From positions 1-20,714 of IMG/VR virus record IMGVR_UViG_3300011253_000731: DNA of 20,714 nucleotides; one strand, given 5' to 3'. The notes below the pieces were generated by a model, which searched no databases, was not told where the DNA came from, and saw nothing but the letters and a program-made list of their open reading frames with translations. Shown piece by piece: positions 1 through 18,027 of this stretch. The translations under genes and the position numbers were made by a program. Source of the stretch: a virus. Within the stretch, counting starts at the first letter, position 1, and every line of letters begins with the position of its first letter.

Positions 1-303
1 GGTGTTCTTAATGGACGTACAAAAGTATACATCGACCCGTATTCAGATACTGATTACTGTAACGTTGGCTACAAAGGTACTAACCCTTATGACGCTGGTC
101 TATTCTATTGCCCATACGTACCATTAACAATGGTTCGTGCGGTTGGTGAGAACACCTTCCAGCCAAAAATCGGGTTCAAAACTCGATACGGTGTTGGCGT
201 GAATCCTTTCGCTACAGATCAGGGTGTGGCTGGGCGAAATCAGAATACGTCCAACAAGTATTACCGAGGCGTTGTGATCAACAACCTCTTCGGTATTTCC
301 TAA
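1..303 (+). CDS. 23: Major capsid protein gp23, C-terminal 100 residues (5' end outside window)
   Basis: Frame 1 is open from the first base to TAA at 301-303. The translation contains IGYKG-like NVGYKGTNPYDAGLFYCPYVP and ends in NKYYRGVVINNLFGIS, matching the conserved C-terminal part of T4-type gp23 (YKGT-DAG-YY-PY-P and a terminal YYR-V---NL). gp23 builds the hexamers of the prohead shell; in T4 its N-terminus is removed by the prohead protease, but that end is not in this window. It is followed at once by a strong terminator, so it closes its transcription unit. Assignment is from sequence pattern recognition, not from a search. Confidence 0.93.
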   Translation, partial: GVLNGRTKVYIDPYSDTDYCNVGYKGTNPYDAGLFYCPYVPLTMVRAVGENTFQPKIGFKTRYGVGVNPFATDQGVAGRNQNTSNKYYRGVVINNLFGIS

Positions 304-8240: not shown

Positions 8241-9194
8241 ATGAGTCTATTGAAGTTCATGGACATCGAGGATACTCATGCTGGTTATATTCCTCCGCAT
8301 GAGCGATTCGACAAATACGATGGTGACAAATGCTGGCAAGGACATCTACGAGAACTCCATTATGAACAAGACCTAAAAGACGCCAACCTGACACACGAAG
8401 AAGCACAGCAGCTACGCACGTCGGATTTTGAATTTGAATATATCCCAAAAGACGATAAATTGAAATGCAAACAGATCATCCGATTCATCGAGCGTCACGA
8501 ATGGCTAGGCAAGATGCCCACATGGTTGACGCATAGATTCGCATGGTATTTGAATATACCGGGGAAACCAAGAGTCTTGTCTGGTGTGATCGTTATGGCA
8601 ACACCGAATGCCTTTTCTAACCTGTTAGGCAAAGAGAACCGAGACAAAGAAAAGCTGATTGCAAGAGGAGCCTGCATTTCATTTGGTCCAAAGAACCTTG
8701 GATCGAACATCATCATGCAGGCAATCAAGTGGATGGTAAAGAACACAGAGTTTCGCTTCTTTACTGCCTATAGTGACCCTGATGCCAAGGAACTAGGGAC
8801 GATATACCAAGCCTGTTCATTCAGCTACTTAGGACAGACAAGTGGAACCAAGTATCAGTATTTCGTAGAGGGCAAAGGATGGAAGGGTGACAAGTCATTC
8901 ACTGAGCGTAGTGAGTATGTCCGTCATGCCAAGGATCTGGGCATCAAGTTCCTACCAGAGTGGAGAAAAAACGGCAAGGTCAACTGGCAAAATGTTCCGC
9001 CGGAAATTTCTTCCCAATTGCGACAAGCGGCAAAGGACAAGAAGGCATCATGCAAACGACGCCTCGCAAAACCCAAGCATAAGTACGTCTATATATTAGG
9101 CAGAGGAAAGAAAGAGACAAAGCGTCTCCGCAAACTATTTGTGATGAACAACCCGGATATACCAAAGGAGTATCCCAAGAACCGAGGTGAATGA
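8241..9194 (+). CDS. Mom-like DNA-modification protein (GNAT fold), candidate
   Basis: Phage Mu Mom belongs to a GNAT-fold family that turns adenine into a carbamoylmethyl derivative, protecting phage DNA from restriction. This 317-residue protein shows the pattern I associate with Mom-like phage proteins: GVIVMATPNAFSNLLG (112-130), RGACISFGPKNLGSNIIM (142-159) followed by an AIKWM helix, the signature AYSDPDAKELGTIYQACSF (176-194) with YLGQTSG, and a C-terminal basic segment KHKYVYILG (279-287) plus YPK (311-313). An N-terminal region of about 75 residues and a lysine-rich C-terminus could contact DNA. It is followed by a nuclease-like gene. Which chemical group it transfers cannot be read from sequence; a related GNAT acyltransferase is the alternative. 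Confidence 0.72.
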   Translation: MSLLKFMDIEDTHAGYIPPHERFDKYDGDKCWQGHLRELHYEQDLKDANLTHEEAQQLRTSDFEFEYIPKDDKLKCKQIIRFIERHEWLGKMPTWLTHRFAWYLNIPGKPRVLSGVIVMATPNAFSNLLGKENRDKEKLIARGACISFGPKNLGSNIIMQAIKWMVKNTEFRFFTAYSDPDAKELGTIYQACSFSYLGQTSGTKYQYFVEGKGWKGDKSFTERSEYVRHAKDLGIKFLPEWRKNGKVNWQNVPPEISSQLRQAAKDKKASCKRRLAKPKHKYVYILGRGKKETKRLRKLFVMNNPDIPKEYPKNRGE

Positions 9195-9196
9195 CC

Positions 9197-10123
9197 ATGC
9201 CCAAAACACCATCCAAGACATGCCACCAATGTAAAAAGACCTATGACAACGCGTACCTATATTTCTGGAAAGACGCAAGAATTTCAACGGGATATCAGGC
9301 AACATGCATTACATGTAAGACCGGAGGACAGAGAACGTCCAGAGTCCATATGCGTGATTCTAGTGTGGTCATCAAAACAAAACCCTCCCTGCCTAGCAAA
9401 AAGCCTAGCAATCGTTCTACACTTGAAGGTTTTTTCATTGCCCCTAAAAAGCAGAAGACTCCCAAAAAGAAGAAGAGTGTAAAGGACAATCACCAACAGC
9501 CAACCCTATTCGCTACGCCCCCCAAGAAGAAGAAGCAGCAAGAGAAGGGGATGAAAGAGTGTTCTTTTTGCAAAAAGGTGTTTCCAGAAACGACTAAGTA
9601 TTTTACTCCAAACCGCAAAAAAGGCAAACTTTCATTTGAGGGGATAAAACTTCATTCAACGTGTAGATCCTGTCGAAACGTTCAAAGTCAAATTCACAGA
9701 AAGAACAATCCCAACCTTCGCGTTTTCCAGACTAAGAGGCATAAAGCCAAGTACCACGGCATCGAATTCAATTTGGGTGAAAGGGGATCTTCAGGAGAAA
9801 AAGCATGGATAGCTAAAATGGAGAAGACCACGAGTTGTGTGGATTGCGGTCAGGAAATTAGTGCTTATGCACCAAAAGAAAGTAATGGAGCCCCAAGAAA
9901 GAATTCGATGTCATTTGACAAGATCAATCCAAATATAGGATATGTCGAGGGCAATACTCGCCTTGTGTGTTATGAATGCAACACACGAAAAAGCACTTCT
10001 CCTGTAGATGAATGGATGGGGCAACTAGAAGTGCGTATACGAAAAGGAATGATCCAAGAGATTGATCCAGATCTTGTTAGGTACATTGAAAGAGAAAACA
10101 GCTTAGAGAAGTATTTTGAATGA
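9197..10123 (+). CDS. Triple zinc-knuckle protein with HNH/endonuclease VII-like C-terminus
   Basis: The 308-residue product carries three paired CxxC sites: C9/C12 with C37/C40, C122/C125 with C156/C159, and C214/C217 with C258/C261. The last pair frames SFDKINPNIGYVEGNTRLVCYECN, the usual D-I-P---GY---N---VC--CN core of HNH and endonuclease VII-like nucleases, although the first catalytic histidine of the classic motif is not obvious. Between the first two zinc modules lies a lysine/proline-rich, probably disordered linker (residues about 55-120). ATG 9197 is chosen over ATG 9191 because GAGGTG at 9184-9189 is properly spaced for 9197 only. Likely a free-standing homing or DNA-processing nuclease. 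Confidence 0.8.
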   Translation: MPKTPSKTCHQCKKTYDNAYLYFWKDARISTGYQATCITCKTGGQRTSRVHMRDSSVVIKTKPSLPSKKPSNRSTLEGFFIAPKKQKTPKKKKSVKDNHQQPTLFATPPKKKKQQEKGMKECSFCKKVFPETTKYFTPNRKKGKLSFEGIKLHSTCRSCRNVQSQIHRKNNPNLRVFQTKRHKAKYHGIEFNLGERGSSGEKAWIAKMEKTTSCVDCGQEISAYAPKESNGAPRKNSMSFDKINPNIGYVEGNTRLVCYECNTRKSTSPVDEWMGQLEVRIRKGMIQEIDPDLVRYIERENSLEKYFE

Positions 10124-10477: not shown

Positions 10478-11515
10478 ATGTCGGTTGAAGTTGTTGTCAA
10501 GAACACCAATCTTTCCAAAAGAGCAAATCAGCGGAAGAAGAAGAAGAAGAAGAACAACAAAACCCCAAATGCTGCCCCCGGTACGAAGTTAGCCAAATCG
10601 CTGATGTCACCCGACTTGAGATTCATTGAAAGCGCAATCAAGCTCATACCCGAAGACAGAAAGTCCACCTTGGTTAAGATTCTGATGCGGAATATTAGTA
10701 ACGGCAGGAAGCCTAGTCTCAAGCAAGAGGTCAAAGAGTTCGTAGAGCAAGAAGAAGCCCAACACCAACTACCTTTGGATGATGCCGTATTTGCAGAGCA
10801 GTATAAGCGAATGCAGAAGCATAATCAAGAGAAATCAAAGAAGAAAGATGAACGGGAGAAGGCTCTAAGAGAACAAAAGCAACTAGAACTCAAGAATGAG
10901 AAGGATCGTAAGCGTAGAATTAGATACATGTATGATCCCCTAGAAGACCCTGACAACAGCATAATCCACACTCGTTATTTGGATGACACGAATCGACAAC
11001 AAACCAAAGTCCGTCTATCTGTACACAAGTGGTTAAGTGAAAAATTCTTCTCGCCTTCTGAGTGGTCTGCAAAAGTGAGCCTGTTGCCTGACGACCTAAA
11101 GGCATCTATAAAGAGCCCTTATCATTTCAAAAAGTTTGCTTCATGTGGAGTGTATCGCTTCTATAATGATGAAGGCATGAGCTATGTCGGCGAATCTCAG
11201 GACGTATGGAGTCGAATATCAAATCACCTTTCACCATCTGTGCTAGAATCCAGTAGAGGAAAACTTCAGCAGTATGTGAGAGAACATGGATGTGAGACGT
11301 TGAAGGTTGAGATTTTGGTGTATGGTAGTATGTTAGGCAAGTCATCTTATGTCAAATTCAGAAAGCACCTTGAAGCATTTTTGATCCACGAATACAACTC
11401 CATTGAAAATGGCTGGAACGTAAAGGTAGAGCATACATTAGAGGAGGATGGATTTGACATTGAAACAACTAGGAAGCTATGCGAATCTTGGGGAATACTG
11501 CCAGAAAAAGGTTAA
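10478..11515 (+). CDS. GIY-YIG nuclease with long charged N-terminal region
   Basis: The C-terminal domain shows the GIY-YIG signature as GVY (224-226) and YVG (236-238), a catalytic-type arginine in DVWSRISNHL (R246), the metal-binding glutamate in LEAFLIHEYN (E299), and the closing GWN (312-314). The first 220 residues are strongly charged: a run of lysines at 20-26 encoded by AAG repeats, a helical region, and a likely coiled coil at 105-148. The domain class includes homing endonucleases and repair or restriction nucleases; the unusual N-terminus fits a DNA-binding or tethering part. AAGGAGGAA lies nine bases before the ATG. It is the last gene before the first repeat-rich non-coding region. 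Confidence 0.87.
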   Translation: MSVEVVVKNTNLSKRANQRKKKKKKNNKTPNAAPGTKLAKSLMSPDLRFIESAIKLIPEDRKSTLVKILMRNISNGRKPSLKQEVKEFVEQEEAQHQLPLDDAVFAEQYKRMQKHNQEKSKKKDEREKALREQKQLELKNEKDRKRRIRYMYDPLEDPDNSIIHTRYLDDTNRQQTKVRLSVHKWLSEKFFSPSEWSAKVSLLPDDLKASIKSPYHFKKFASCGVYRFYNDEGMSYVGESQDVWSRISNHLSPSVLESSRGKLQQYVREHGCETLKVEILVYGSMLGKSSYVKFRKHLEAFLIHEYNSIENGWNVKVEHTLEEDGFDIETTRKLCESWGILPEKG

Positions 11516-16435: not shown

Positions 16436-16442
16436 CTAAATA
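16436..16442 (+). promoter_or_regulatory. CTAAATA late-promoter-like motif
   Basis: CTAAATA, extended as GCTAAATATAGG, lies 31 bases before the modular protein gene and directly after the terminator, which is a fitting position for a gp55-dependent late promoter. Confidence 0.6.
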
Positions 16443-16473: not shown

Positions 16474-18027
16474 ATGGCAAAATCAATTAAAGAATCTTAC
16501 GGTCCTGTGCAGTATCACAACTCGCTAACTATGTTGGCAAGAGAATCACGCAACTGTGGTGACAACTGTCAATGTGACGATTGTGGTTGTGGTCAGATTG
16601 ATGAAAACAAAAAGGCAGAGAGACTAGCAAAGATCGCTCGTGCAGCAAAAGCTCGCGAAAAGGATCAGGCAAAAGAGAAAGCCAAAGCGACAGAGAAGCA
16701 CAATCAAAATTCTGCCAAGTCTCGCGCAGGCATTGATTACTTGAAGAATGGTGCAAACGAAGAAGTCGAGATCACCGAGTCCGACAAGGCTGAGTATGAT
16801 AAACTAATGAAGCAGTATGGTGACATGCCAGCATCGAAGATTCCGCCCAAGATATACATGCGGATTTCGCAGCTTGGTCGCAAGGTTCGTGGAGACAAGG
16901 GTGGACCGAAAGTTGGTGATCTGCTCAAGAGCATGAAGAAAAAGAAGATGGGTGAAGCAGTCGATCAGGTTGAAGAAGCATTCAGCCCAGCTATAATCAA
17001 AAAGATGAAACAGGTTCTTGATCGCACAGGAATGGGTGATATCAATTCTGCGATGGAGATTAATGATACCTTACCCAAGGATGCGAAAAAAGTGTTGTCA
17101 AAGGTTAAGAACTCAAAAGAGCTAGACAAATACTTGAAGTCAAATGAAGAAGTCGAGATCACCGAAGCCAAAAAAACTATTAAGCTCAGTAGTGGAGATG
17201 TAGTTGAAATCGGAAAGATCGACCGAGGAAATGGGAAGACTCATTACTATTGGAAACATAAGAGTGGATTGAAGAACATGTTTCCAACTCTAGAAAAAAT
17301 GAGATATTCACTTCGGAATGATGGAAACTTCAAAGGAGCCGAGAAGGTAACAAAGCAACTCGGCGAATCTCTTCGTCAGCGAGCCGATGATTCGATGACC
17401 TTCAGTAACCGACAAGCTGCCTTCTCGGCGGCATTCATGAAAGCCCATAGTCGAAAGCCAACAAAGCAAGAGCTTCGCGATGCTGGTGTTGGAAAGGGTG
17501 GAGACAATCCTGCTGGAGCGAAGGCGTACCAGAAAGCGATGAGTAAGCTGCGACCAGCAAGTCGATCAGGCATCAAGGATAAGTTCGTTCACAACGAAGA
17601 GGTTGAGATTGATGAAGCCGAGATGGGAGCAATCGCTCGTAACGTAAAGAAGGGTGACAGCCCGTATACTGTTGTGGCTATTGTGAATAAAAAGGTAGTG
17701 GATCAGGATCATGCAAAGGTTGCCGATCAGGTTCCTGCACTTGTTCGCGAACTCCAGAAAGAGTATCCGAATGCAAAGATTTCTGTAGAGGATCGTGGTG
17801 GTCGTGTTGTTCATTCTGAGGCTTTTGTTGACGAGGGCAGAATGGGTGGTGGTTTCAGATCCTTCCGAGGTAGCGGAATGAAAAATATTCGCATCCGTGA
17901 TGACGAAGGTTATCGGAAAGATGGTAGCAATCCTGTAGATGATGCAATTGCTAAACGTAATGCTGCACGAAGGAAAGCAATCGTGCGTAAAGTTCAAGCT
18001 GGCGATAAGACTAAAAAGGGAAAATGA
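16474..18027 (+). CDS. Modular protein with repeated I-x-E junctions, probable virion/prohead protein
   Basis: The 517-residue, strongly charged product reads as a chain of unrelated small modules divided by a recurring acidic linker: NEEVEITE-S (95-103), NEEVEITE-A (224-232) and NEEVEIDE-A (374-382), plus QIDE-N at 41-45 and the weaker VEEAF (166-170) and EAFVDE-G (449-455). (I/L)-x-E followed by a small residue is the cleavage pattern of the T4 prohead protease gp21, so I infer processing during head maturation. The first module is a CxxC/CxC-rich stretch (residues 28-40) then a lysine/alanine helix; others include KTIKLSSGDVVEIGKIDRG and SNRQAAFSAAFMKAHSRKPT. GGAG eight bases upstream sets the start. 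Confidence 0.75.
   Translation: MAKSIKESYGPVQYHNSLTMLARESRNCGDNCQCDDCGCGQIDENKKAERLAKIARAAKAREKDQAKEKAKATEKHNQNSAKSRAGIDYLKNGANEEVEITESDKAEYDKLMKQYGDMPASKIPPKIYMRISQLGRKVRGDKGGPKVGDLLKSMKKKKMGEAVDQVEEAFSPAIIKKMKQVLDRTGMGDINSAMEINDTLPKDAKKVLSKVKNSKELDKYLKSNEEVEITEAKKTIKLSSGDVVEIGKIDRGNGKTHYYWKHKSGLKNMFPTLEKMRYSLRNDGNFKGAEKVTKQLGESLRQRADDSMTFSNRQAAFSAAFMKAHSRKPTKQELRDAGVGKGGDNPAGAKAYQKAMSKLRPASRSGIKDKFVHNEEVEIDEAEMGAIARNVKKGDSPYTVVAIVNKKVVDQDHAKVADQVPALVRELQKEYPNAKISVEDRGGRVVHSEAFVDEGRMGGGFRSFRGSGMKNIRIRDDEGYRKDGSNPVDDAIAKRNAARRKAIVRKVQAGDKTKKGK
16756..16779 (+). repeat. Linker-coding repeat, copy 1
   Basis: GAAGAAGTCGAGATCACCGA is shared with 17143-17166 without mismatch over 20 bases, although the codons could vary freely. 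A third, diverged copy encodes NEEVEIDE at 17593-17616. Confidence 0.88.
17143..17166 (+). repeat. Linker-coding repeat, copy 2
   Basis: Differs from copy 1 only at the third base and the last base of the 24-base unit. The near-identity at silent positions suggests recent duplication or homology-driven module exchange. Confidence 0.88.

Follow-up and report, generated by a model that had tools for sequence, protein, structure and literature searches.

Repeated prohead-protease-type linkers in P0001, a candidate cargo polyprotein from a marine T4-like phage

Repeated linkers in an open reading frame without full-length relatives

How should a viral protein be understood in which the same short sequence recurs between pieces that otherwise look unrelated? 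The question is raised by P0001, an open reading frame at positions 16474..18027 (+) of a 20.7-kb DNA stretch (20,714 nucleotides; hereafter the window) that constitutes an entire fragment of a T4-like virus. P0001 starts with ATG, runs unbroken for 517 amino acids (57 kDa, pI 9.7), and contains three closely similar linkers, NEEVEITE↓S at residues 95–102 (16756..16779, +), NEEVEITE↓A at residues 224–231 (17143..17166, +), and NEEVEIDE↓A at residues 374–381 (17593..17616, +), with the arrow marking the proposed cut, as well as a further candidate junction, QIDE↓N, at residue 44 (IDE codons 16597..16605, +). An initial annotation had placed junctions ending at exactly residues 102, 231, and 381, with IDE-N at 44, and had described the intervening modules as looking unrelated; the translated frame bears out both statements, and the pieces between the linkers show no mutual similarity at E ≤ 1. 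We consider it probable that P0001 is a cargo polyprotein made by a marine T4-like phage and that a prohead protease of the gp21 type cuts it into internal head proteins, with cleavage, packaging, and ejection of P0001 itself being inferred.

The four junctions first proposed are probably not the only ones, as plausible sites at residues 7, 161, 168, 298, and 454 had been missed. These comprise a possible leader cut inferred within MAKSIKE↓S (residues 5–7; 16486..16494, +), an N terminus that matches a capsid-targeting sequence (CTS) poorly; MGE↓A at residue 161, one more plausible site; two secondary candidates, also inferred, at VEE↓A (residue 168; 16969..16977, +) and LGE↓S (residue 298; 17359..17367, +); and the candidate VDE↓G (residue 454; 17827..17835, +). 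Four of the six predicted products have a pI of 9.4–11.3. The linker repetition is not due to chance: in 20,000 shuffles of P0001, three NEEVEI[TD]E copies never arose, and five or more [LI]xE[ASG] matches occurred in only 0.085%. The plain [LI]xE count is not unusual (six, against 3.4 expected from shuffles). The metal-binding-like patch reported for the first module does contain five cysteines (Cys 28, 32, 34, 37, and 39; 16555..16590, +) immediately before the first junction, and a comparable cysteine-rich patch precedes a junction in the cyanophage protein S-SCSM1_29 (CPYCSCDPCECEGVEIEE↓S). Its match to the Pfam metallothionein family remains below threshold (16.6 bits, cut-off 31.8).

The linkers are also close in DNA, differing by one, three, and four synonymous changes over the six NEEVEI codons. 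Taken alone, this near-identity cannot tell selection on the protein from duplication, and the small number of synonymous differences fits a reading in which linker DNA serves only as short homology for shuffling, its protein sequence being merely tolerated. We regard that reading as very improbable in view of the wider linker class described below. A second alternative is that the linkers are a repeated docking motif or flexible spacer, for example a core-binding motif, in a protein that remains whole. The AlphaFold model of P0001 has its lowest confidence at residues 361–380, as a spacer might, although the entire model is poor (pLDDT 44.7), so that low confidence is only weak support for predicted flexibility of the linkers.

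Searches with P0001 itself returned little. With E as permissive as 10, tblastn of the whole protein recovered no relative from phage records; there was also none in 47 uvsW-related records, and no match in the viral contigs searched with six peptides. Neither PHROGs nor Pfam, including the DUF6321 and PHROG 727 profiles, yielded a domain; Pfam gave no peptidase domain, and the two libraries no recognizable effector domain of polyvalent proteins. Module searches in the first loci produced marginal matches only, and in one case the linker had raised the score. Homology of module 382–454 to a cyanophage "YPG" module was considered (HMMER domain E 0.00045 to one sequence; hhalign score 28.1, where shuffled sequences reached 25.5 at most) and set aside as suggestive only. 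Outside the window, a clear relative was seen for just one P0001 module.

A modular linker class with exchanged modules

Because no full-length relative of P0001 was found, we scanned viral contigs for the linker itself, using DNA patterns for EEVEITE, EEVEIDE, EEVELDE (two codon classes), and EEVEQIDE. The resulting totals are lower bounds, the real class being larger than the sample. These scans recovered at least 160 open reading frames with two or more linkers among at least 612 with one, whereas shuffling the rest of each frame predicts a single multi-linker frame. The linker was absent from all 1,576 open reading frames of the uvsW-region loci, which contain head, tail, and replication genes. 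Among the matches listed, the most linkers in one protein is six (L220), the longest open frame spans 1,442 amino acids (L133), and 361 sites give the consensus (K/N)-E-E-V-(E/Q)-(L/I)-D-E. The small residue, S or A, that had been expected after the cut is present at the three P0001 linkers and does not hold across the class: at the same 361 sites A, L, and G are commonest, and K, I, and others also occur. Judged from these comparisons, the linker marks a large, previously undescribed class of modular proteins. We found no description of such linkers or of prohead-cut cargo polyproteins in the literature, having covered open-licence papers only, so an earlier account is possible.

The class also bears on what the linker is conserved for. 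All of the codon-distinct scans recover linkers, so that hydrophobic-x-E is kept despite changes in codons and residues, and junctions of the same property (VSE↓, LNE↓, ITE↓) occur without the EEVE stretch. Both observations argue against linker DNA acting solely as a recombination seam. Invariance of the P1 glutamate does not discriminate among readings, because this residue was fixed by the search pattern. Conservation extends upstream of the protease motif, through EEVE at P7–P4, which is beyond what gp21 specificity needs and is a point in favor of an uncut string of modules. The loose motif also matches a few unrelated open reading frames in S-SCSM1.

Modules appear in many combinations. 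Cutting 239 linker proteins among the matches listed at their linkers gave 847 modules, with 39 families found in at least three proteins and 27 of these in at least three different neighbor contexts; the largest family is probably over-merged because single linkage clustering was used. BLAST alignment ends are enriched 2.2–2.7-fold near linkers, an effect to which alignment of the linker itself necessarily contributes. Exchange involving P0001 emerged from a search with its module 382–454, which identified L666, a truncated modular open reading frame of a different phage. The two proteins share just one module (about residues 382–452), and their DNA is 82% identical over 204 nt (window 17593..17796, +, the linker plus residues 382–441; L666:733-936). 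The similarity sets in precisely with the opening codon of NEEVEIDE, which is also what a recombination seam would produce, and the candidate junction at residue 454 lies close to the end of the exchanged module. Outside the shared module the two have no significant similarity except for a second linker match.

In L666, the modular frame is followed by genes related to S-SCSM1_92 and S-SCSM1_96. The S-SCSM1_96-like product (L666:2047-2454) is a conserved protein of about 130 amino acids present in about 100 fetched loci, most of which were brought in by the linker, and it is possibly a synteny marker of a cargo gene cluster. Elsewhere, a modular EEVE protein (L145:1939-6234, −) seems to have an intein-like insert in one module, FDVYP[C...TGN]SAYANGWAAKWYK, and the same FDVYP module is uninterrupted in L122.

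Modules also have counterparts among single genes. T4 internal proteins reach the head by means of a CTS of 10–19 residues, which gp21 removes after L/I-x-E (PMC9026906). With aspartate in place of the P1 glutamate, T4 processing is blocked and targeting is not (PMC9026906). Among the loci at hand, 341 short open reading frames have a CTS-style start, MK-x-F-K...(I/L)-x-E, and the mature parts of these align to 631 separate internal places within longer frames. At 328 of the 631 (52%), the projected cut has an [ILVM]xE no more than two residues away, compared with 11.5% at random positions in the same proteins; the remaining 48% of in-chain counterparts have no site there. Two pairs serve as examples with zero offset. 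The single gene MKTFKDLSAELEE↓RDYKREYANYHS, whose mature part starts RDYKREY (L444), corresponds to in-chain EEVELDE↓RNYAKEYENYHS, which starts RNYAKEY, and a P-loop single gene, MKSFKDYHNINE↓GINDPAIFKAVF..GGPGSGKS (L444), corresponds to in-chain VELEE↓GVNDPAIFKAVF. L444 belongs to one contig with L270, which is related to the window's phage and has 74% identity to it in UvsW. The DUF6321 module likewise forms a single gene in S-CAM3 (S-CAM3_139, MKSFKDLRSDITE↓AAWTRK), and polyproteins elsewhere have it as their final module (..VSE↓GAAWTKK, ..VNE↓GAAWTKK, ..LDE↓VAAWQRK). These pairs indicate that the linker occupies the position of the CTS cut site. Homology often resumes directly after the glutamate in both the single-gene and in-chain forms, which weighs against the uncut string, a reading we consider unlikely.

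The P-loop protein itself (GGPGSGKS; L444:11768-12502, −) has a CTS-like leader as a single gene and is an internal module of other chains, and occurrence in both forms raises the possibility that an enzyme may be packaged by way of a chain.

Head genes, prohead protease, and virion annotations

The window opens with the C-terminal 100 amino acids of the major capsid protein gp23 (1..303, +; compared with gp23 of Melnitz), and, judging by this gp23 end, the phage has a T4 head gene set. Genes for a tail-tube protein, uvsY, and uvsW follow, and a gp55-like sigma factor, gp47, and gp46 were assigned by position and by sequence against Melnitz; the closest matches of gp46 are in marine cyanophages, S-CAM3 among them (44% identical). 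The N-terminal cut site of gp23 and the gp21 gene of this phage fall outside the contig. Both can be viewed in its closest relatives, L247 and L248 (UvsW 99–100% identical), where gp23 reads ..SLLGE↓AAPE and gp21 of L247 starts ..VEFITE↓E, much like the linker's VEITE. Both cut sites are inferred from their T4 equivalents rather than measured. More broadly, gp21 and gp23/gp21 sites of the same type are present in relatives with 74–100% UvsW identity, a second observation that speaks against an uncut protein, and the (L/I)-x-E motif is present at the P0001 junctions. The gp21 family, Peptidase_S77, was detected in 8 of 8 multi-linker contigs of at least 90 kb against 5 of 14 controls in the long-contig sample, and in 15 of 26 against 7 of 24 across every contig size. 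The 11 of 26 multi-linker contigs in which it was not found are each shorter than 85 kb and are possibly fragments.

Other genes of the window include one for a Mom-like DNA modification protein (8241-9194, +; Pfam 45.6 bits, cut-off 27.1), an Endonuclease VII/HNH-like gene (9191-10123, +), and after it a GIY-YIG homing-endonuclease-like gene (10478-11515, +). A T4-type late promoter was considered upstream of P0001, where CTAAATA lies at 16436-16442, 31 nt before the frame; the window has four such sequences against 1.6 expected, and 7 of 100 shuffles reach four, so the promoter was not retained. The gene adjoining P0001 (19258..20220, −) has a T4 CTS-like start, MKRFKHYLEE↓K, with MKTFKQHISE↓A and MKTFKTYLRE↓F in relatives, making its product a separate candidate for an internal head protein on sequence grounds, of unknown fold. 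An H-x-T...SIS motif had suggested an Alt-like ADP-ribosyltransferase; this assignment was rejected, as the model is weak (pLDDT 54) and Foldseek gave no significant match.

Proteolysis in the prohead need not yield cargo. P0001 could instead be an extra prohead core protein that gp21 shreds and whose pieces exit, in which case the cuts would be real and the products waste. There is precedent in the T4 core proteins gp22, gp67, and gp68, where cleavage yields several fragments, most of which are lost from the head, and gp22 of related phages is also rich in IxE/LxE sites. In the relatives, however, a distinct gene upstream of gp23 encodes gp22, and P0001 is not at the gp22 position between gp21 and gp23, its gene sitting about 16 kb beyond gp23 in the window. 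Core filler would also leave unexplained why the modules are diverse, are swapped as units, and exist as single capsid-targeted genes, the P-loop protein included.

Members of the class are, moreover, annotated as components of mature virions, a further argument against core filler, which we hold to be an unlikely account. The virion proteome of cyanophage S-SCSM1 was determined by mass spectrometry (974 peptides; PMC9602691), and its record names the modular proteins S-SCSM1_29, S-SCSM1_89, and S-SCSM1_92 as "virion protein", an annotation without junction peptides. Their junctions read EGVEIEE↓SVRV.. and ..VSE↓GAAWTKK in S-SCSM1_29, ..LSE↓AY.. and EEVENVDE↓R in S-SCSM1_89, and EEVELDE↓R in S-SCSM1_92. 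The authors of that study caution that part of the non-structural virion proteins may be carry-over (PMC9602691), and the record holds 48 virion-annotated coding sequences compared with 45 in the paper.

S-SCSM1_91, an NMNAT (L665:3820-5049), is also virion-annotated and has the CTS-like start MKSFLQFLKE↓AAE; a cytidylyltransferase of this kind has been detected in virions of S-SM1 (PMC3037559). A second NMNAT-like protein, from Melnitz (L241:14914-16866), starts MKKFSEIIE↓AR and has a modular tail as well. Such leaders could account for NMNAT in cyanophage virions. S-SCSM1_93 (L665:6627-6836), a virion protein of 69 amino acids, ends in RTFKEFLEYIE, which resembles a capsid-targeting sequence.

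A probable cargo polyprotein and its precedents

The proposal that P0001 is a precursor for gp21-type cleavage, made in the initial annotation, is supported by what the sequences demonstrate: repeated linkers that mark a modular class, exchange bounded by the linker, modules that double as single genes, and protease sites of the same type in relatives. The S-SCSM1 annotations agree with it, whereas cleavage itself is inferred. As a cargo polyprotein, the P0001 chain would enter the prohead core, bound through its leader or another part, and a gp21-type protease would cut after I/L-x-E within the EEVE(I/L)xE linkers and perhaps also at the I/L/V-x-E sites at 168, 298, and 454. This would release roughly six or more small proteins of about 5–17 kDa, most of them basic, which would remain with the DNA in the head and probably be ejected into the host. 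The linker of an internal module would be the counterpart of the CTS leader plus cut site of a single-gene internal protein, and modules would travel between phages together with their linker.

The likeness to T4 IPI, IPII, IPIII, and Alt is that these are head-internal, mostly basic, variable, and cut by gp21 after L/I-x-E, and that many related single genes found here start with the CTS-like MK-x-F-K-x-x-(I/L)-x-E. Whereas each T4 internal protein has one gene and one leader, several are strung here on one chain with repeated linkers. The T4 proteins gp22, gp67, and gp68 share the single precursor with multiple gp21 cuts, but their fragments mostly exit the head, unlike the exchanged units with single-gene equivalents seen here. 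In phages phiKZ and SPN3US, the prohead protease (gp175/gp245) cuts head-internal ejection proteins after x-x-E, sometimes at several sites; there, however, long propeptides are removed to leave one mature product per gene. Cyanophage proteins of PHROG 727, PHROG 3477, and DUF6321 (PF19846) belong to the same modular class, with xxE↓G/A junctions and some virion annotations, but none of the P0001 modules is DUF6321, and the libraries assign no function to these families. The nearest earlier idea is that of polyvalent proteins of phages and conjugative elements, which are multidomain, delivered with DNA, strongly domain-shuffled, and proposed to be processed into units (Iyer et al. 2017, PMC5512222). 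An embedded metallopeptidase is thought to process these, in contrast to the linker for a prohead-type protease acting in trans inferred here. P0001 is inferred to work in the manner of the T4 internal proteins, with several products coming from one precursor.

A more general idea, which we offer tentatively and to which we give somewhat less than even odds, is that cargo in T4-like environmental phages is combinatorial: interchangeable cassettes are carried on polyproteins, and the short sequence that bounds them is both prohead-protease cut site and recombination seam. If this is true, a phage could gain or exchange injected proteins with no need to evolve another gene start, targeting leader, or promoter. 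The cargo polyprotein reading as such would account for a large set of rapidly changing hypothetical proteins in T4-like phages of marine and fresh waters, as packaged and probably injected cargo. The linkers would make such cargo readable in sequence and give modules exact predicted ends, and existing virion mass-spectrometry data would become a direct test. The arrangement also offers a natural model for how phage heads might be loaded with several cargoes, and the modules would point to early host-takeover or counter-defense proteins of abundant ocean viruses.
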